A DNA stretch of 64,000 bases from Desulfomicrobium macestii (GTDB lineage: Bacteria; Desulfobacterota; Desulfovibrionia; Desulfovibrionales; Desulfomicrobiaceae). Below the pieces are notes generated by a model. That model was not told the DNA's origin and made no database searches. It worked only from the letters and a program-made list of their open reading frames with translations. The stretch covers positions 1 to 64,000 of the forward strand of contig NZ_JADBGG010000014.1 of assembly GCF_014873765.1 (NCBI RefSeq). The letters are read 5' to 3'. The position numbers and the translations under genes were made by a program. Below are positions 33,351-46,621 of the stretch, one piece after another (the first letter of the stretch is position 1; each line of letters opens with the position of its first letter).

Positions 33351-33935
33351 ATGGTTTCTCAGAATTCTTACGACGGCATCGACAAGTATGCCGCCGACCT
33401 CATTCGGCACAAAGCACGTCAACTCGTAGGCAAGGCCGGATTCACCGAGGACGACAGACCCGACCTCGAACAGGAACTGATGATCGATCTGCTGCAGCGG
33501 ATGCGGCATTTCAATCCCGCCAAGGCCAAGAAGACCACCTTCATGGCCCGGATCGTCGAACGTCACATCTCCACCATCCTGGAGGCCCGGTTCGCCCAAT
33601 GCCGGGACTGGCGGCTCTGCCAAACCTCACTCAACGAACCCCTCGACAACGGCGAAGGCAACACCACCGAGCGGATCGACTTCCTGGACAGCGAGGGCTC
33701 CCTGGGAGGCGGCACCCGCGAGACAAGGGAGCGTCTCGCCCATGAGATCCGCATGGACCTCGACCGGGCCATCGCCTCGCTGCCGGAAGAGCTCCGGGAT
33801 CTGTGCGTGCGCCTGCACGACAGCACCATGGCCGAAATCGCCCGGGAGATGGGCATTCCCAGAACCACCCTCTACGACCGGCTGAGCAAGCTGCGGGAGG
33901 CTTTCAGCGAGGCTGGCCTGACCGACTACCTGTGA
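33351..33935 (+). CDS. Phage-encoded sigma-70-like factor
   Basis: A 194-aa protein with sigma layout. An N-terminal helical part (YAADLIRHKARQLVGKAGFT; DLEQELMIDLLQRMRHFNP; TTFMARIVERHISTILEAR) resembles sigma region 2. The C-terminal part (DLDRAIASLPEELRDLCVRL and MAEIAREMGIPRTTLYDRLS) is a region 4 HTH. It probably directs host RNA polymerase to phage promoters. A repeated promoter-like element begins one base after its stop. A sigma-like HTH regulator without polymerase binding is the alternative. Its ribosome binding site is held in a hairpin. Confidence 0.75.
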   Translation: MVSQNSYDGIDKYAADLIRHKARQLVGKAGFTEDDRPDLEQELMIDLLQRMRHFNPAKAKKTTFMARIVERHISTILEARFAQCRDWRLCQTSLNEPLDNGEGNTTERIDFLDSEGSLGGGTRETRERLAHEIRMDLDRAIASLPEELRDLCVRLHDSTMAEIAREMGIPRTTLYDRLSKLREAFSEAGLTDYL

Positions 33936-37153: not shown

Positions 37154-39333
37154 AGCGCGTTTACTATGCCGGACCCAAGTTCTCCGCAGGCCGACTGCTC
37201 ACCCCGACCGGTGAGGAAGTCCAGTTCGCGGGCAATTTGTTCGCCCGGGAAAATCAGCCTGTGGTCCTGCTCGGGTCGTGGTCCACCCATCCCAAATATG
37301 GCCGTCAGTTCAAGGTCGACGGGATGGAGCACGACCTCGAACTCGATCCGGAGGGGCTGATCCACTATTTGGCCAACCATCCGGAGATCAAGGGCATTGG
37401 TCCGGCCAAGGCCAGATTGATCGTCGAGAGTTTCGGCGACGCCTTTGAAGAAACCCTTCTGAATGACCCCGAACGCATCGCGCTCAAGGCTCGACTGCCT
37501 CTGGACGCGGCCCGGCGGCTGCGTGACGAATGGTTGAAGAACCGCAGCGTCAACACCGTCATGGCCTGGCTGTCGGCATTCGGCCTGACCCATCATCAGG
37601 TCACCACCCTGGTCGAAAGACTCGGCGGCAACTGCCTCGATATCCTGAAAGAAGACCCGTACATCCTCATTCGGGAGATCCGGGGATTCGGCTTCAAGAA
37701 GGTCGACAAGATTGCCCGCAAGCTGGGAACCCCCAAGGACCATACCCCTCGTATCCGGGCCGGGCTGAATTTCTGCGTCCGTGAAGCCCTGGACAATGGC
37801 CACTGCTGGATCGAATACGAGGATCTGGTCGACCAGGCCAATCTGCTGCTGGTCATGGATGCCCTGGACAGCCGGGTTCGTATCGAGAGCGCCCTCGACG
37901 CGCTCATCGAAGAACAGGCGCTTGCCTGCGATTCCCACGGCGGACGTTTCGTGGTCGCTCTGCCGGAGATCGTCCGAATGGAGCGGGAGTTGGCCTCGCT
38001 GTTCGGCCAGGCCGAAACACCCAACCCGCATTTCCACTCTGTCAAGAAACTCGATGCCCTGATTCGGCGCTGCGCGGCGACGCTGAACGAGAAGCAGCTC
38101 GACGCGGTCCGCTCGGCCCTCCAGCACAGCATCAGCCTGATTTCGGGTGGAGCCGGTTCGGGCAAGAGCTACACCATTTCGGTCATCAACACCATCTGCG
38201 AGGAGAGCGATCTGGAGGTCGTGCTCGCCGCGCCGACCGGCAAGGCAGCAAAGCGCCTGGAAGAAGTCAGCGGTCGCAGCGGCACCACCATCCACCGTCT
38301 GCTCGGCTATGACGGCAAGGGTTTCTCGCGCAGCAAGGAGAACCCCGTCGATGCCCACGTCCTGGTGGTCGACGAGTTTTCGATGGTGGACGTGCCGTTG
38401 GCCTGGCACCTGTTCGAGGCGGTTGACCTGTCGCGGACCACGGTGCTGCTGGTCGGTGACCACAACCAGCTTCCGCCGGTAGGTCCAGGGAACATCCTGC
38501 GCGATCTGATCCAGACACGCGCCATCCCCACGGTCATCCTCGACAAGGTCGTGCGTCAGGCTGGCGTCCTCAAGGAGAACTGCACTGCCGTTCTGAAGGG
38601 CGAGGTGCGCAAGACCAGCGAGGCGTCGGTGGGCGGATGCCGGGATTGGTATCTGGTGGATCAGTTCACCGACCCGATGGCGGCACGCTCGTTCCTGCTG
38701 GAGCTGTTTCAGGAGCGGCTCGATGCCCTGGGTTTCGACATCATCAAGGACGTGCAGGTGCTGACGCCGACCCACAAGGGGCCGCTCGGCACCAAGGAAT
38801 TGAACGAGGAACTGCAGCGGCTCATCCAGCGCAAGCTCTGGGACACCGAAGTGCCGCCGGTCGCCATGGGCCGCCGCGCCCCGTTTCTCAAGCACGACAA
38901 GGTTATCCAGACCCGGAACAACTACGACCTGAACGTGATGAATGGTGCCATCGGCTATGTGGTCGATGTTCTCACGAACGGCACCCTGGTCATCGATTTC
39001 GACGGCATGCCGGTGGAACTGGAAAAGGGTTCGCCCGACCTGCAGGATCTGCAGCTCGCCTATGCGCTCACCATCCACAAAACCCAGGGGTCCGAATTCC
39101 CCTGCGCCGTGGTGGTGGTCCACAAGGCGCATTCCTTCATGCACCACCGCAATCTGCTCTACACCGGGGTGACCCGCGCCCGGCGCACCGCCATTGTCCT
39201 GGGCGACCATTGGGGCATCCAGAATTGCGCCAAGCGTTGCCAGGTGGATGACCGTCGGACCTTTCTGCCCCTGTTTCTGGACGCCGCCCAGCACGCGGAG
39301 GCCGATTTCGCCCGTGTCGCGGAGGTCGAATGA
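37105..39333 (+). CDS. RecD2-like helicase
   Basis: A 742-aa SF1B helicase. An N-terminal OB-like part (RGRIERVYYAGPKFSAGRLL) is followed by HhH repeats near residue 85-215 (IKGIGPAKARLIVESFGDAF; EIRGFGFKKVDKIARKLG), as in RecD2. Helicase motif I is SGGAGSGKSYT near 350, motif Ia APTGKAAKRL, motif II VLVVDEFSM, motif III LVGDHNQLPPV, motif V/VI ALTIHKTQGSEFP and YTGVTRARR. The start at MPKRNES (37105) has GGAGG 8 nt upstream; the frame stays open to 36922 inside the nuclease gene. Probably unwinds DNA for recombination or replication restart. Confidence 0.88.
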   Translation: MPKRNESNPARLRGRIERVYYAGPKFSAGRLLTPTGEEVQFAGNLFARENQPVVLLGSWSTHPKYGRQFKVDGMEHDLELDPEGLIHYLANHPEIKGIGPAKARLIVESFGDAFEETLLNDPERIALKARLPLDAARRLRDEWLKNRSVNTVMAWLSAFGLTHHQVTTLVERLGGNCLDILKEDPYILIREIRGFGFKKVDKIARKLGTPKDHTPRIRAGLNFCVREALDNGHCWIEYEDLVDQANLLLVMDALDSRVRIESALDALIEEQALACDSHGGRFVVALPEIVRMERELASLFGQAETPNPHFHSVKKLDALIRRCAATLNEKQLDAVRSALQHSISLISGGAGSGKSYTISVINTICEESDLEVVLAAPTGKAAKRLEEVSGRSGTTIHRLLGYDGKGFSRSKENPVDAHVLVVDEFSMVDVPLAWHLFEAVDLSRTTVLLVGDHNQLPPVGPGNILRDLIQTRAIPTVILDKVVRQAGVLKENCTAVLKGEVRKTSEASVGGCRDWYLVDQFTDPMAARSFLLELFQERLDALGFDIIKDVQVLTPTHKGPLGTKELNEELQRLIQRKLWDTEVPPVAMGRRAPFLKHDKVIQTRNNYDLNVMNGAIGYVVDVLTNGTLVIDFDGMPVELEKGSPDLQDLQLAYALTIHKTQGSEFPCAVVVVHKAHSFMHHRNLLYTGVTRARRTAIVLGDHWGIQNCAKRCQVDDRRTFLPLFLDAAQHAEADFARVAEVE

Positions 39334-42300
39334 GTATGGGCGGAACGGATAACGTCAGGGAGTATTACCGGCTCGTCACCGAGATGGACATCGGTGACGT
39401 GGCCCGGGAACTCCTGCCGGGACGGATCACCCAAGAGACCGGCCAGCGCTTGATGTGCGACTGCCCCAACCATCAGAGCCAGTCGCGTCTGTCGCTGCAC
39501 GTGATGCTCGACAAGCAGGGCTGGTACTGCTTCGGCTGCGGAGTCGGCGGTGATGTGCTGCAGCTCGTTGAGTTCATTCAGACAGGCTCGGTCACCGCCG
39601 GGCAATCTGGTCCGATGCCGGACAGCCACCGTCATGCCCGGGACTATCTCGCCAAGAAGGCGGGCTTGCCTCCGCTGTCGCGCTATGGCCTCAGCCAGGA
39701 GCGTCTGGCCCAGACGGAGGCCGACCGCGCCTTCGAACTGCGGGTCAAGGACGCGCTGACCTCGCTGGCCAGGCTTTACCACGCCAGGCTCAAGGAGTCG
39801 CCGGAGGTCCTCGACTGGCTGAAATCCAAATACGCCCTGAGCGAGGAGACCATCGACGATCTCCTGATCGGCTACGCGGACAACGCGTCCGGCGCGGTCG
39901 CCCAACTGACCGGGGGTGAGGACGGTTTTTCCAAGCGGGAGCTCGCCGCCACCGGCGCTTTCCGTCCCACCAGCCAGGACGGCCTGACGCCATTTTTCGA
40001 GCGCCGCATCGTCTTTCCCTACTGGAGCCGTGGCCGGGTAGTGTTCATGATCGGCCGCAAGACGCCGTGGACCCCGGACGTGGGCTGGGAGCAAGGGAAA
40101 TACAAGAAACTGCCGGTTCATGACGAACACCAACGGCCCTACGTCGCCGACTTCATCAACAACGCGCTGCTGTTCAACGAGGACTGTCTGCTGGCCCGGC
40201 CCGGCAAGGTGATCATCACCGAGGGGGTGACCGATTGCCTGGCGCTGATGCAACTGGGCCTGCCCACCGTATCGCCGGTCACCGTCCGCATCCGGGCCGC
40301 CGATTGGGAGCGCCTGATCCCCAAGTTGCGCGGCGTCGAAACCGTCTACATCTGTCAGGACAACGAACTCTCCCAAGCCGGTCTCAAGGGGGCACTGCAA
40401 ACCGCCCGCACCCTGGCCGAACACAAGATCGACACCCGCCTGGTGACGCTGCCCTTGTCGGAGACACAGATCTCAGCCCGGCAGGAGCTGACCGAACGCT
40501 TCGGCCTGACGGCGAGCGTGGGGCCGAAGGAGCTGGCCAAGCTGCTGGCTGGACGGCCCGCCGAGGAAATCCAGGCGGCCGAGGCGCTTCTCGCCACCGC
40601 CAAGATCGACGTCAACGATTACATTGCCGCCGGGCATACCCGGGAGGATTTCGAACGTCTGCTCGCCGAGGCTAGCACGCCCATCGAGTTCGGCGTGCGC
40701 TCGCTGCCCGAGGGCGCTGAAGAGGAGGAACGCAACCGCCTGCTCGAACCGATCCTGGGGGAGATTTCCGAGCAGTCGCCGCTGGAACAGTCCCGCCTGC
40801 TGAAGCTGGTGCAGGAACGCATCGGCGGTGGCGTTTCGATGGCCACCCTGAAAGAGCAGATCCGCGCCATCCAGAAGGACCGCAAGGTCGAGTTCCGTAA
40901 CGAAAAGAAGAAGGCCAAGCGGATGTCCGGCGCGATGCCCGGATCATGCCGCGCCCGGGTCGACGAGGTGCTGATCGACACAGAACTGGAGAACGGCGCT
41001 CCCGACTACACACTGGCCGCCGAGGCCGCCTACGACTGGTTTACCGCCAACGGTGCCCAGTTCTTTCACACCCTGCAGGGCGAGCCGTTCATGTATTTCG
41101 ACAACGCCATCTACTGGATGGATTCGCCGGACCGGGGCCGCAAGCGCCATTACGCGGCCATGCTCTATAAGCACACGGGCATGGTGCCGACCTCCAACGG
41201 CGGACGGACATTTTTCGAGGTGTTGCCAAGCCTGGCGATGATCCGTGGCCAGGTGCGCGACCATTTTTCCTGGCTGCACACGGATGTGGCTTCCTACACC
41301 GTCTATTTCAACCTGAACAATCCGGAGCACGAGATCGCCAAGATCACCCCGGACGAAATTCAGATCATGAAGAACGGCGGCAACGAGGACGGCATCATCC
41401 TGGACGGCTCGCGCAAGATGAAGCCGCTGAAATTCCTGCCCGACGCCGACCTCGAAGAGGCGGACCGGCTCCTGGTCGATCTGCTGGTGGGCAACATGAC
41501 CTGTCCGCAGGGGGATCGCTTTCTCATCCTTTCCTGGCTCTCCTGTTTCCTGCTGATCGACTTCGCCGGGACGCGGCCCATGACTCGCTTCGAGGGCTCG
41601 GCCGGATCGGGCAAGACCACCGCCAGCAAGATCACGTCGACGCTGCTTTACGGCGAGCCCCAGCACAAGAAGGCCACCGACGCGGCGAACTACACCGACG
41701 GCTCGCAGAACCCGCTCATCGTCCTCGACAACATCGAGGTCAAGCAGATGACCGAGGATCTGACCACCTTCATGCTTACCAGCATCACCGGCATCGCCAA
41801 AGAGAAGCGCAAGAGCGGCACCGACAGCGAGACCATCACCGAGCGGACCAAGTGCCTGCTGAACACCACCGGCATCGAGCCGCTGTGCGGGGAGCTTTCG
41901 GAGATCCAATCCCGTAGTTTCGTGATCAACTTCGATGTCACCAACCAGGGCAATGACTGTTTCATCGAATCCGAGATTGTCGCGGGTATCCAGCAGCAGC
42001 GCGACCTTATCATTTCAGCCATCATGAAGCGAACCCGGGTGGTCCTGGCCATGATGCGGGACGGCATGAGACGCCATGCCATGAAGCTTCTGCACGATGC
42101 ATTGGGGAACCACGACAAACGTCGCTGCAATGAATATCTCAGCCTGATGTACCTGATGATGTTGGCTGGATCGAGCCGCCTGGAGATGGAACAGGGATTG
42201 GAAACGCTGGCACCGGCATTTGCCCGGCAGATCGAGTCGCTCAATCGGACCAGCCGGGATACGGCCAGGGAGTCGAATCATACGGCCACCGCGCTGGCGA

Positions 42301-42632
42301 CCTTGTTCAACGCGTGGCGCACTGCGACCGAAACCAATGCGCGGGATGTTTACGGAGACCGCCGGACGGACCCGGTTCAGGAGTTCGTCCAGCGGTATCA
42401 GATCCGCTTTGAAGACGATGGAAGTTTACGGGAGGTTCTATCCCGGGATCTGTTCGTCGCCCTCAAGAGGGTTGCCAGGGATTTCGGTCTGCGTTTCGAG
42501 ATGGATTCATCCCGGCAATTCGCACAGAGGCTGGTGAATGATCTGGAAACTATCCGGGGGGCAGGATTTGAGATTGAAATCGGGCAGAAACGGTACGGCA
42601 CCAAGCTCTACACAATCCGTCGCATTGAATGA
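39330..42632 (+). CDS. Phage primase-helicase (CHC2 zinc finger, Toprim, ATPase)
   Basis: An 1100-aa replication protein. The zinc finger is CDCPNHQSQ ... WYCFGCGVGGD near residue 44-72. A DnaG-like core follows (ALSEETIDDLLIGYAD; FFERRIVFPYWSRGRVVFMI) and Toprim with IITEGVTDCLALMQ near 295 and VYICQDNE. After a linker, a second half carries an ATPase with Walker A EGSAGSGKTTAS near 755 and LIVLDNIEVKQ as Walker B. It is likely both to prime and to unwind phage DNA. The ATG overlaps the helicase stop. It is the last gene of the early operon. Confidence 0.85.
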   Translation: MSMGGTDNVREYYRLVTEMDIGDVARELLPGRITQETGQRLMCDCPNHQSQSRLSLHVMLDKQGWYCFGCGVGGDVLQLVEFIQTGSVTAGQSGPMPDSHRHARDYLAKKAGLPPLSRYGLSQERLAQTEADRAFELRVKDALTSLARLYHARLKESPEVLDWLKSKYALSEETIDDLLIGYADNASGAVAQLTGGEDGFSKRELAATGAFRPTSQDGLTPFFERRIVFPYWSRGRVVFMIGRKTPWTPDVGWEQGKYKKLPVHDEHQRPYVADFINNALLFNEDCLLARPGKVIITEGVTDCLALMQLGLPTVSPVTVRIRAADWERLIPKLRGVETVYICQDNELSQAGLKGALQTARTLAEHKIDTRLVTLPLSETQISARQELTERFGLTASVGPKELAKLLAGRPAEEIQAAEALLATAKIDVNDYIAAGHTREDFERLLAEASTPIEFGVRSLPEGAEEEERNRLLEPILGEISEQSPLEQSRLLKLVQERIGGGVSMATLKEQIRAIQKDRKVEFRNEKKKAKRMSGAMPGSCRARVDEVLIDTELENGAPDYTLAAEAAYDWFTANGAQFFHTLQGEPFMYFDNAIYWMDSPDRGRKRHYAAMLYKHTGMVPTSNGGRTFFEVLPSLAMIRGQVRDHFSWLHTDVASYTVYFNLNNPEHEIAKITPDEIQIMKNGGNEDGIILDGSRKMKPLKFLPDADLEEADRLLVDLLVGNMTCPQGDRFLILSWLSCFLLIDFAGTRPMTRFEGSAGSGKTTASKITSTLLYGEPQHKKATDAANYTDGSQNPLIVLDNIEVKQMTEDLTTFMLTSITGIAKEKRKSGTDSETITERTKCLLNTTGIEPLCGELSEIQSRSFVINFDVTNQGNDCFIESEIVAGIQQQRDLIISAIMKRTRVVLAMMRDGMRRHAMKLLHDALGNHDKRRCNEYLSLMYLMMLAGSSRLEMEQGLETLAPAFARQIESLNRTSRDTARESNHTATALATLFNAWRTATETNARDVYGDRRTDPVQEFVQRYQIRFEDDGSLREVLSRDLFVALKRVARDFGLRFEMDSSRQFAQRLVNDLETIRGAGFEIEIGQKRYGTKLYTIRRIE

Positions 42633-42837: not shown

Positions 42838-44346
42838 TCAGTCCCTCGCATATCCTTCCCGGACGGCGTTCTCCATGGCAGCCAACTCGTCATCGGTCAG
42901 AAATTCGAAATGCGATTCCCTCTTTCGTGCCGAAAGGCGACCATTGTTTTGCAGGCATAGCTGGATAAACAAATCGATGAGGCGGTCAGGCATATCAACG
43001 ATTTCCTGAATGGCCTGCTTGGTCCTGTCGTAATTCGCCAGAAAATCGAGTTCTTCCACCAATTCGTTCTCGATGGTGAGCTTGACAAAATCATACAATG
43101 CCTCCGCCTGAGCGGTCATATCGACGTACCTGTACAGACGCCTGGTCTCGCCCGGCACGGTCATCTGACCCAGATCGTCCAGGTCGTATTCAACCAACCG
43201 CATCAACGGGCTTGAGAACGCCTCAAGGGAGTGGTCGTAAAGCGCCGGATTTTTCAGCATGGCGGCGGAGACCGGGAACATCAGCCCTTTCGGAATCGCA
43301 CCGCGCAGGAACAGGATGTTGTGAATGAGAAACCGGTGAATTCGGCCGTTGCCGTCCTCGAAGGGATGCATGAAGACGAAGCCGTAGGAGATGGCGGCGG
43401 CATGGATAATGGCTGGAACCTCGCCGTCCTTCATCACTTGATGGGCAGCGAGCAATCCCGCCATCAGTTCCGGAAGGTCGTCGGGTTTTGGACAAACAAA
43501 GTGAACGAGTTGTTTCTGGTAGGAAATCGTCTGACCAACGTAGTTCTGGTTAGCCCGATAGTCCGTGTCTCGAAATCGGGGATCGACGATGCGGTTCTGC
43601 ACGTCGATCAGGAGCGGTTTTTCGCAGAAATCCTTGTGCTCGGCCATCTCCAGCAAGCCGATGAATTTCTCGGTTCGGGAGGCACTCGGCTTGATGTGTT
43701 CGATCTCGAATGAGGACTTGGTCTCTTTGTTGTACAGGTAGCTCAGTGCCCGTCTGAGCAGCTCCGGTGGATAGGAGGTCACGACCTCCTCGCACTTTTT
43801 CCGCAGGTCGATCCCCTCCATGGCGGCGAGTTTCTCGGTTCGCCGGATGATGGGACAGAAATCTTTCCCGCCAAGCAGATTGTCGATGACCCTCTGACGC
43901 TGCACGCGACGGCCGGGCGCTGCGGTGTAGTAATGGTCCGGCTCCAGCAGCGGCGTGTAATTCCCCTTGGTCAGATCCGGCAGCGGAAGTTCCCGTCCGG
44001 TCAGGAATTCATACAGGAACCAAATTTTGCGGGCGTATTTCCCAGTCGGTTTCGAGCTGATCCAGGCCGTTATCTCATCCGCAGGGACCACGTCGAAAAG
44101 AGCCGATAGGATGCCAAGATTAACGCCGTCGTATTTGAGGGCGAACTCCAGGTGGTCTCCCGTTCCGTCTCCGGGCCAATAGGACTGAGGATAGACGGAC
44201 TCCACTTGCCCATCCTGAATAGTCGAGCGCAGCGTCCCGGTCGGGCTGACGGAGGACGTATGCCAGTTCGGCAAAGCGCTCAATCCGAAACGCGAGATCA
44301 GAATCGCATATCCCGCCAGTCGGTTCTGGTTCGTGTCCAATGTCAT
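42838..44346 (-). CDS. Fic-domain protein (probable AMP transferase)
   Basis: A 502-aa protein. The Fic core is intact: HPFEDGNGRIHR at 327-338 matches HxFx(D/E)GNGRxxR, so catalysis is likely. The flap strand region lies just before. An inhibitory-helix-like phrase SSFEIEH (211-217) is close to the (S/T)xxxE(G/N) motif but has His where Gly or Asn is expected. N-terminal 200 residues are family-specific, and a C-terminal HTH-like part is possible (LFIQLCLQNNGRLSARKR). It runs against the phage operons and has four direct repeats in front of its start. It may act as a toxin, a defence factor or a regulator in lysogeny. Confidence 0.85.
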   Translation of the reverse strand: MTLDTNQNRLAGYAILISRFGLSALPNWHTSSVSPTGTLRSTIQDGQVESVYPQSYWPGDGTGDHLEFALKYDGVNLGILSALFDVVPADEITAWISSKPTGKYARKIWFLYEFLTGRELPLPDLTKGNYTPLLEPDHYYTAAPGRRVQRQRVIDNLLGGKDFCPIIRRTEKLAAMEGIDLRKKCEEVVTSYPPELLRRALSYLYNKETKSSFEIEHIKPSASRTEKFIGLLEMAEHKDFCEKPLLIDVQNRIVDPRFRDTDYRANQNYVGQTISYQKQLVHFVCPKPDDLPELMAGLLAAHQVMKDGEVPAIIHAAAISYGFVFMHPFEDGNGRIHRFLIHNILFLRGAIPKGLMFPVSAAMLKNPALYDHSLEAFSSPLMRLVEYDLDDLGQMTVPGETRRLYRYVDMTAQAEALYDFVKLTIENELVEELDFLANYDRTKQAIQEIVDMPDRLIDLFIQLCLQNNGRLSARKRESHFEFLTDDELAAMENAVREGYARD

Positions 44347-44351
44347 AACAC

Positions 44352-44547
44352 CTCAAAAAATCGTTACGGTTCTCAAAAAACGATTACGAGAAGCCTTTAA
44401 GCTAAAAATATAGTTAAATTGGCTGCAATTTTCAAGAGAATTGTTTGAAATGCCTGGGGTGAGGTCAAAATGGGGGCGGTTCTCAAAAAACGTGTTTGCA
44501 ACTAAAAATATGATTACAAATGGGCTGCACTCTCAGAAAACAGTTAC
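44352..44547 (-). repeat. Direct repeats upstream of fic, probable operators
   Basis: Four related copies of CTCAAAAAACGATTAC start at 44352, 44372, 44482 and 44532. The second and third are each followed by CTAAAAATAT plus an AT-rich stretch and GGCTGCA (44402-44427 and 44502-44529), so a unit of 51-59 bp is duplicated at 110-bp distance. The first copy is 5 bp from the fic start codon, where a bound protein would block expression. Confidence 0.65.
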
Positions 44548-44586: not shown

Positions 44587-44900
44587 GTAGAAAGACCTTT
44601 CTACGCCGTAGAAAGTCCCTGGAACCACTTTCTACGAAGTAACATGCTGGTTTAACGGTATTTTATGCAAATGCGTAGAAATGGTAGAAAGGTTTCCGGG
44701 GTCACTCCCCCTGACTCACTATTTTTTCGTGCTCTTCGACCTCGGAGTCGGCTCACGGAAAAAATTCCCATGCGGTAAGTAACTTCCATAACCTTTCTAC
44801 ACTTTCTACAATCATAATCATAACCTATTGATTACAAGACTATTTTAGCTTGTAGAAAGGTGCCGTAGAAAGGGTCTGAGGCGTAGAAACCCCTTTCTAC
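44587..44900. repeat. GTAGAAAG iteron array, candidate phage replication origin or control region
   Basis: GTAGAAAG occurs exactly at 44587, 44608, 44684, 44852 and 44865, and its reverse CTTTCTAC at 44597, 44628, 44793, 44802 and 44893. Near-copies are at 44675 and 44883. The first pair forms the inverted repeat GTAGAAAG-AC-CTTTCTAC. An A+T-rich stretch (44806-44848: ATCATAATCATAACC and on) lies between the two clusters. Many iterons plus an AT-rich block is the pattern of an origin. It lies 2 kb from the primase-helicase gene. No gene fits in 44347-44973. Confidence 0.65.
44772..44783 (+). repeat. Partial copy of the promoter-like repeat inside the iteron array
   Basis: GCGGTAAGTAAC matches the right half of the 36-bp repeat, but no CCGAC lies at the proper distance to the left. 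It is probably a decayed or partial copy. Confidence 0.4.
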
Positions 44901-44973: not shown

Positions 44974-45747
44974 ATGAGCCTTCTGACTACCATGATCCGT
45001 CACCTCGGCACGGATGCCCCCAAAGCCGACAGCCAAGCCTGCCTCGCTGTTTCCGAAACCTCGCAACATTGCCAGTCCCTTTTCGTCACCACCGATCTTG
45101 AAATCAAGAAGTTCGCCTGGGTCCGGACGGGTGAGATCGACATCGAGCAGAACGGTAAGGTTTTTCGTCTGTTGTCTCCTGAATACTTTGCATGGCTACG
45201 TTCCCGCATGGTCACGGCCCAAGCCGCGCACAAGGCCGGAAAGCTCCCCGAGGATGCCTGGAACACGCTGCGGCAGAGATTCAACGCCCTGCAGGAGCTG
45301 GCCATCAGGGAGTTCGACAAGGAAAGCCTGCAGGAGGTCCTGCAGGCATTTTCCCTAAAGAACTACCGGCCACCCACGCTTCGTCCCGAGCCCCAGGAGA
45401 AACCCGTCGAAGTTCCCAGAAAGGACTGGATTTATCCCGGCAACCAAGCTTGGAAATGTAAGCAGCCGGTGACTTCCCAGGCAGTCGCCAAGGTCGACGC
45501 CATCCGTGAGGAGGCCATGGCCATGGGCTGGTCCGAGGCACGCCTCTATCAGAACCAGGGCCGCTTCCGGTTTCCCTGCGGCGAGGACTACGGTCTGGTC
45601 TGTTTCGTCGATGGCGATCAGGAGATTGGCGAGGTCACCGAGCGTTCTATCGAAATTATCCATGGGCCGAAGTCCGGGCGTCCCAGCACGCTGCGGTTCT
45701 ACAACCCGGACGTGCCGCAGCCGTGGATGAAGAAAGTGGAGGATTGA
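44974..45747 (+). CDS. Phage protein, unknown
   Basis: A 257-aa protein. The first 45 residues are plain, then EIKKFAWVRTGEIDIEQNGK and FRLLSPEYFAWLRSRMVTAQ, a helical middle (RFNALQELAIREFDKESLQEV) and a C-terminal alpha/beta part (GRFRFPCGEDYGLVCFVDGD). I recognise no family. TTTCCGGAGAATTACC gives a ribosome binding site (GGAG, 8 nt). It lies directly after the iteron array and copy 2 of the promoter-like repeat and 3 bp before the HTH gene; a role in regulation or replication is possible. Confidence 0.68.
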   Translation: MSLLTTMIRHLGTDAPKADSQACLAVSETSQHCQSLFVTTDLEIKKFAWVRTGEIDIEQNGKVFRLLSPEYFAWLRSRMVTAQAAHKAGKLPEDAWNTLRQRFNALQELAIREFDKESLQEVLQAFSLKNYRPPTLRPEPQEKPVEVPRKDWIYPGNQAWKCKQPVTSQAVAKVDAIREEAMAMGWSEARLYQNQGRFRFPCGEDYGLVCFVDGDQEIGEVTERSIEIIHGPKSGRPSTLRFYNPDVPQPWMKKVED

Positions 45748-45750
45748 GCC

Positions 45751-46029
45751 GTGAAGAAAAAGAAACGCTACGCCAACGCCAAGGATGTCCTGCCCGAGGA
45801 ACTCTTCGAGCAGATCCAGAAGCACTACACCGGGATTCTCTGGGTCCCGGCTCCGAGCCGCTTTTACCAGGAGCGCCGCGACCTGGTGCTTGCCCTTCAT
45901 CTGCAGGGGATCAGCAGCCAGGAGATCTCCAACCTCGCTGGAGTGACCACCCGCCGGGTCAACCAGATCATCGCCGCCGAACGAAAACAGGACCGGGACC
46001 GACAGTTGGCCGCCGCTTCCGGTAAGTAA
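45751..46029 (+). CDS. HTH protein resembling Mor/CD3324-type activators
   Basis: A 92-aa protein starting at GTG 45751 (the previous stop is 3 bp upstream). YANAKDVLPEELFEQIQKHY followed by GILWVP is the N-terminal signature of small Mor/CD3324-like phage regulators. LALHLQGISSQEISNLAGVT and TRRVNQIIA form the HTH. Mor-family proteins activate middle or late phage promoters. The last codons, GCT TCC GGT AAG TAA, lie inside copy 3 of the promoter-like repeat, so gene end and repeat share DNA. It is the strongest candidate besides the sigma factor for reading that repeat. Confidence 0.75.
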   Translation: MKKKKRYANAKDVLPEELFEQIQKHYTGILWVPAPSRFYQERRDLVLALHLQGISSQEISNLAGVTTRRVNQIIAAERKQDRDRQLAAASGK

Positions 46030-46120: not shown

Positions 46121-46621
46121 GTGGCACTGAACAAACCGGACAAAGAGACGCTGGACCGCTGGCACCGCAACGAGGGCAAGACCGAACCGCCCCGGCGCGG
46201 GCCTGGTGCGCCCGAGGGCAACCAGAACCGGCTGCGTCACGGCATCTTCGCCGACCGCTGTCTGACGCCGGAAGAAAAGGTCATGTTCGACGCGATCATC
46301 GACCGCCTCAACCAGGACTTCGAGTTCAACAAGTCCAGCGACTTCCTGCAAGTGGAGCTGGTGGGCGTCTACTCGGTCAAGCTGGTCCGCGCCCAGATCG
46401 AGGGGAACACCGACGCCGCCGAAAAGCTCGACCGGATGATCCGCTGCCACATGAAGGATCTCAAGACCACCAAGATTGCTCGCGAGGGTGAGGAGCCGAA
46501 AGGCCCGCAGACCTCTCCGGCGGAATGGGCGGCGGCACTGCTTGAGAAGGTGGCCGAGGCTGCCAACACCCCGGGCGCGAAACCCTCCGGCCGCAAGAAA
46601 CACGGAAAGAATTGCGGATAA
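46121..46621 (+). CDS. Putative terminase small subunit
   Basis: A 166-aa protein starting at GTG 46121 with AGGATT 5 nt upstream. GAPEGNQNRLRHGIF near residue 30 is the phrase found in many phage small-terminase or packaging-associated proteins. Helices follow (KVMFDAIIDRLNQDFEFNKS; LVGVYSVKLVRAQIEG), and the end is basic (SGRKKHGKNCG). It would select phage DNA for packaging with TerL. TerL lies 2.8 kb to the right, beyond a reversed recombinase cassette, so the usual terS-terL pair is split here. The function is inferred. Confidence 0.6.
   Translation: MALNKPDKETLDRWHRNEGKTEPPRRGPGAPEGNQNRLRHGIFADRCLTPEEKVMFDAIIDRLNQDFEFNKSSDFLQVELVGVYSVKLVRAQIEGNTDAAEKLDRMIRCHMKDLKTTKIAREGEEPKGPQTSPAEWAAALLEKVAEAANTPGAKPSGRKKHGKNCG

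Follow-up and report, generated by a model that had tools for sequence, protein, structure and literature searches.

A candidate phage replication origin in Desulfomicrobium macestii whose iteron word covaries with the C-terminal domain of a primase-helicase

Layout of the repeat array

The DNA analysed here, hereafter the window, comprises positions 1 to 64,000 of a 104.7-kb contig in the 4.5-Mb genome of Desulfomicrobium macestii and contains a gene set typical of a temperate tailed phage, within which the octamer GTAGAAAG is densely repeated at positions 44587-44900, downstream of a gene for a primase-helicase. This iteron array, a candidate replication origin, holds ten exact copies of GTAGAAAG, five per strand (plus-strand starts at 44587, 44608, 44684, 44852 and 44865; minus-strand starts at 44597, 44628, 44793, 44802 and 44893), and two one-mismatch copies (GTAGAAAT at 44675 and GTAGAAAC at 44883) bring the total to 12 sites. 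Neither a further GTAGAAAG nor a second array of the word was found elsewhere in the window, and closely opposed GTAGAAAG pairs occur at this locus only in the whole host assembly. Dinucleotide shuffles of the window gave a mean of 0.54 copies and a maximum of 3, never 10. An earlier sequence-only reading had counted ten octamers, five in each orientation, with two near-copies in these 314 bp, had put the chance expectation at one or fewer and had seen the octamer repeated nowhere else in the window; our recount agreed with it throughout.

The same reading described two clusters around an A+T-rich stretch, of which the stretch was recovered while the sites proved to fall into four groups and not simply two. 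The left group (44587-44635) has the order + 44587, - 44597, + 44608 and - 44628, a pattern that recurs in relatives, and is followed by a head-to-tail plus-strand pair at 44675-44691 in which GTAGAAAT (44675) and GTAGAAAG (44684) lie 9 bp apart. A spacer of about 100 bp (44692-44792) with average GC content, T- and A-tracts and weak extra dyad symmetry separates this pair from an opposed head-to-tail minus-strand pair (44793-44809; starts 44793 and 44802), also 9 bp apart. Next come an AT-rich tract of 22% GC (44807-44846), which is a candidate DNA-unwinding element, and the right group (44852-44900) with the order + 44852, + 44865, + 44883 (the GTAGAAAC copy) and - 44893. The extra dyad symmetry of the spacer reached p < 0.05 in a minority of 19 loci and is not claimed as a feature. 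Two properties expected of iteron origins are directly visible, namely a compact non-coding region with many copies of a short word and an AT-rich region beside the repeats, while a third, a nearby initiator gene that matches the word, is seen by covariation only.

Relatives were collected from IMG/VR and GTDB genomes with the 257-amino-acid product of gene 44974, the primase and the primase C-terminal domain as queries. Relatives with both genes carried an array of one 8-mer in non-coding DNA that lies downstream of the primase-helicase gene and precedes the 44974 homolog, and the words were GTAGAAAG, GCCGAAAG, ACCGAAAG, GGTGAAAG, TGCGAAGG, TGAGAAGG, TGCGGTGG, TGCGGAGG and GGCGGGTG. Site order, orientation and approximate spacing were kept across the word classes, with a ++ pair, about 105-130 bp, a -- pair and an AT-rich tract in succession, and the 40-bp AT minimum occupied the same slot in all 35 loci examined. 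The least complete array (L073) has no recognisable minus-strand pair sites. Arrays of ACTGGAAC type with opposed pairs at 8-9 bp accompany three distant primases (L081, L085 and L089). In relatives free of cargo genes, the array lies directly 3' of the primase-helicase gene with a gap of 420-550 bp. One locus (L040, in G090:C56) has an intact array and a primase reading frame apparently disrupted in its C-terminal part, and was excluded from the analysis on account of the latter.

Covariation of the word with the primase-helicase

The proposed initiator gene (39330-42632, plus strand) ends 2 kb to the left of the array, as the sequence-only reading had noted, with one opposite-strand Fic gene in between. 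Its 1100-residue product combines a CHC2 zinc ribbon, a DnaG-like primase core, a Walker ATPase and a predicted C-terminal winged helix. Pfam matches were obtained to the CHC2 zinc ribbon and DNAG_N, phrog_47 DNA primase matched with an E value of 1.4e-222, and a Walker A motif (GSAGSGKT) can be read at residues ~756-763, so that primase and a probable helicase appear to be fused in one protein. A D5_N, Pox_D5, DUF927 or related Pfam match was not found at E 0.1.

Our comparison of the relatives showed that the word does not track the products of 44974, 45751 or the terminase gene, nor residues 1-855 of the primase, whose residues 1-859 can be 99-100% identical even between phages of a Desulfobulbia and a gammaproteobacterial host. 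Instead it follows the C-terminal domain (residues 861-1100; 41910-42629), which behaves as a swapped module. In comparison to L006, which has a different word, the window primase is 97% identical over residues 1-860 and only about 50% beyond, whereas L004 shares both the word and a C-terminal domain of about 92% identity. Between L069 (GGTGAAAG) and L072 (TGAGAAGG) the C-terminal domain is nearly constant up to its last ~20 residues, which form the predicted wing. Within one lineage of this domain the wing tip reads QKRY in GTAGAAAG loci and QNHR, KNRN, TDHK, MDHC or ADCH in GCC/ACCGAAAG loci.

Within this domain, two short segments follow the word. Codons 1061-1070 (42510-42539), the predicted recognition helix in the SSRQFAQRLV region, track word positions 5-7, and codons 1080-1098 (42567-42623), a predicted beta-hairpin wing (FEIEIGQKRYGTKLYTIRR), track positions 1-3. 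Correlation of pairwise similarities over 53 loci, controlling for primase residues 1-855 and C-domain residues 870-1050, gave r = 0.82 for the right triplet of the word against residues 1060-1070 and r = 0.57 for the left triplet against residues 1080-1090, in comparison to values near zero (-0.24 to 0.15) for all segments of the 257-residue protein. Among 28 dereplicated loci, none of 5000 free shuffles matched the right-helix value and none of 5000 permutations with labels shuffled within helix classes matched the left-wing value. AlphaFold2 modelling of the C-terminal 133 residues (predicted local distance difference test, pLDDT, 83.8; ~90 for the predicted winged helix itself) gave a succession of helices and a hairpin typical of winged helices, and the helix 1061-1070 and hairpin 1080-1098 coincide with the two covarying segments. 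Because the word covaries with its putative DNA-binding tail, the primase-helicase is singled out as the likely binder of the array. Of the three candidate binders named in the sequence-only reading, covariation thus picks out the 39330 product and argues against those of 44974 and 45751.

Proposed origin function and alternative explanations

We consider it very likely that replication of a temperate tailed phage starts at the array, where the predicted C-terminal winged helix of the primase-helicase binds the iterons. The proposal of an iteron origin made in the sequence-only reading gains support from the conserved geometry, the fixed AT-rich slot, the position by the primase-helicase gene and the covariation of word and tail. 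By analogy to phage P4 alpha and Rep of staphylococcal pathogenicity islands (SaPI), a theta-type origin with iterons and an unwinding element is the best explanation. The C-terminal winged helix of the 39330-42632 product would bind the GTAGAAAG iterons, the right-hand part of the word being read by the recognition helix and the left-hand part by the wing. Occupation of the opposed ++ and -- pairs and the flanking groups would allow helicase rings to assemble, the AT-rich tract at 44807-44846 would open, the helicase would be loaded, and the fused primase would start synthesis. We infer ring assembly and strand opening, as well as physical binding and origin activity, the latter two because of the covariation and the precedents of P4 alpha, SaPI Rep and Cch2.

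In phage P4, primase and helicase are fused in alpha, which binds repeats of the origin through its C-terminal winged helix, after which unwinding and priming follow (PMC4234260). The primase-helicase and its array resemble alpha and the P4 ori/crr iterons in this fusion and in the proposed winged-helix binding of origin repeats. Unlike in P4, however, the gene is part of a tailed phage that has capsid genes of its own, the word is different and diversified, the window yielded no second locus of P4 type, and a Pfam match to D5_N or Pox_D5 was not found. As a D5/SF3 match is missing, the protein is not filed as a member of the P4 alpha family, only as one that would work like it. SaPI Rep and Cch2 of SCCmec recognise short repeats just downstream of the initiator gene through a C-terminal domain (PMC7581432), and in the cargo-free relatives the putative origin likewise follows the initiator gene immediately, whereas in the window a Fic gene intervenes. 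In contrast to SaPI Rep, the primase is DnaG-like and fused to the helicase, a DUF927 or D5-type Pfam match was not found, the array has a fixed four-group layout and cargo genes may part gene from origin.

The exchange of specificity also has a counterpart in the phage-inducible chromosomal island-like elements (PLEs) of Vibrio cholerae, where the DNA-binding part of RepA and the origin covary, are exchanged as a module, as shown experimentally, and work only as a cognate pair; an origin-directed nuclease was suggested as one selective force (PMC8263062). The initiator DNA-binding part and origin appear to covary and to be exchanged as a module here as well, but PLE RepA has a RepA_N fold, an N-terminal binding domain and ~30-bp semi-palindromic iterons, in comparison to a predicted winged helix, an 8-bp word and specificity traced to helix and wing. 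Geminivirus Rep iterons, which keep their positions and vary in sequence between close relatives (PMC12548392), offer an analogy only, as that protein is unrelated and acts in rolling-circle replication.

Several observations weigh against the origin interpretation. The loci share descent, for which the similarity statistics correct only in part, and the triplet frame NNN-G-NNN-G was chosen by eye. Agreement of the word with helix and wing in 7/7 later-fetched loci counts in favour, but all of these fall in word classes already seen. L069 and L072 share the helix and still differ at word position 7, so that the assignment of helix to right and wing to left is a tendency and not absolute; a longer wing may possibly cause a register shift in this pair. 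Matches of the winged-helix model to solved structures were weak (best Z ~4.7) and tied with unrelated winged helices in both Foldseek and VIA-align, the RepE-iteron and Orc1/Cdc6 winged helices being among the top; the P4 origin-binding domain was not among the matches listed, which proves nothing. A sequence search of solved structures gave no match with the C-domain and one chance-level match with the ATPase part. With matches this weak, the winged-helix assignment is based on the predicted topology. Finally, GC skew has no inflection at the array, being uninformative as an origin marker.

The most durable of the alternatives, which we regard as improbable, holds that the array, although bound by the primase-helicase tail, is a site of replication control or incompatibility comparable to P4 crr, or else an operator, and that replication starts elsewhere. 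Covariation tells who binds and not what the binding does, the lack of a GC-skew inflection at the array fits this view, and the existence in P4 of a second iteron locus, crr, also counts for it. It is opposed by the finding that the word forms no other array in the window, by the AT-rich slot conserved inside the array and by the cargo-free relatives, whose arrays directly follow the primase gene, as is reported for SaPI origins (PMC7581432).

It is very unlikely that the 257-residue or 92-residue protein next door binds the array as an operator or late-promoter control region. Their genes adjoin it on the right, and the products weakly resemble an anti-repressor and a late transcriptional activator, respectively. 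However, the 92-residue protein is 91-92% identical to that of the window in two loci, one with the same word and the other with a different one, and for this reason is not the determinant. The N-terminus of the 257-residue protein diverges along with the cassette, yet it is near-identical in L069 and L072 despite their differing words; in addition, L004 (GTAG) is closer to L054 and L061 (GCCG) than to the window, a grouping that contradicts the word, and the controlled correlation was close to zero. Least credible is a packaging (pac) site, suggested by a gene at 46121, 1.2 kb from the array, with a weak terminase small subunit match. Close relatives whose word differs have a 46121 product 92-98% identical to that of the window, which therefore leaves the word change unexplained, in contrast to the primase-helicase with its helix and wing.

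Returning to the origin interpretation, the system would be an initiator-origin pair of a known kind, and its unusual side is an initiator-iteron code that can be read and has been swapped repeatedly, with at least nine words on one layout. With moderate confidence we propose a two-part recognition code in the frame NNN-G-NNN-G, in which the wing would govern word positions 1-3 and the recognition helix positions 5-7, specificity being changed by exchange of the C-domain and array cassette or by the wing alone at constant geometry. Specificity-swapping pairs are known in satellites and plasmids, usually as few alleles, in comparison to the at least nine words found here on a common geometry and protein scaffold, in phages of several bacterial phyla. 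Pairs differing almost only in the wing make the residues that set iteron specificity testable, as is the question of what drives origin diversification in phages, be it incompatibility, origin-targeting antagonists or drift. The word series is a natural set for working out origin recognition by replication proteins and may yield mutually independent replicons for laboratory use.

Neighbouring genes and minor observations

The surrounding phage genes encode a CI-like repressor (29772), a sigma-like factor (33351), an exonuclease, a single-strand-binding protein, an ERCC4-type nuclease and a RecD2-type helicase, and those for a terminase large subunit, portal, Mu F-like head protein and major head protein follow the primase-helicase. 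To the right of the array lie the genes for the putative 257-residue protein (44974-45747, plus strand) and the helix-turn-helix-like 92-residue protein (45751-46029, plus strand). In annotated phage records neither similar DNA nor a match to the 257-residue protein was found. In TGCGGTGG loci (e.g. L006, 6081-6100), two extra iterons lie inside the start of the 257-residue protein gene and encode LPPQPPQP.

The Fic-domain gene (42838-44346, minus strand) is PDC-S24-like (PDC-S24 model, E 6.7e-184) and occupies a variable cargo slot between initiator gene and array; it is absent or replaced in relatives and is therefore not part of the origin. Homologous slots were found in L006, L056, L072, L105 and L113, and defence-like cargo across the slots included Fic, AbiL/RloB pairs, an AbiE pair, an ABC/AAA ATPase and a PLD-type nuclease, while some relatives had an empty slot. 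Repeats of TTCTCAAAAAACGATTAC type at 44352-44541, upstream of the Fic gene, are a possible operator of that gene, and L004 has a CTGGCAAAACAGTTA-type repeat in the same place.

Co-resident pairs in the same host differed in word in 5/7 cases (G313, G090, G704, Desulfosarcina alkanivorans and Desulfobulbus rhabdoformis; some G handles are possibly the same genomes as named ones) and matched in 2/7 (G293 and one IMG/VR contig). As ~79% differing pairs would be expected by chance from word frequencies, this gives no evidence for avoidance of equal words in one host. The L055 locus (Ectothiorhodospira) and the window, from a gammaproteobacterial and a desulfobacterial host, are 97-99% identical in the primase N-terminal part, the 92-residue protein and the 46121 product, which suggests very recent transfer across phyla or misassembly.

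A further repeat, GGTAAGTAA, occurs seven times in the window, always on the plus strand, in comparison to 0.02 expected (33961, 44774, 44927, 46021, 50962, 58040 and 63435). It lies mostly just upstream of genes, often with CTCCGAC ~25 bp before it, and is a promoter-like element, perhaps one used by the phage sigma-like factor encoded at 33351-33935.
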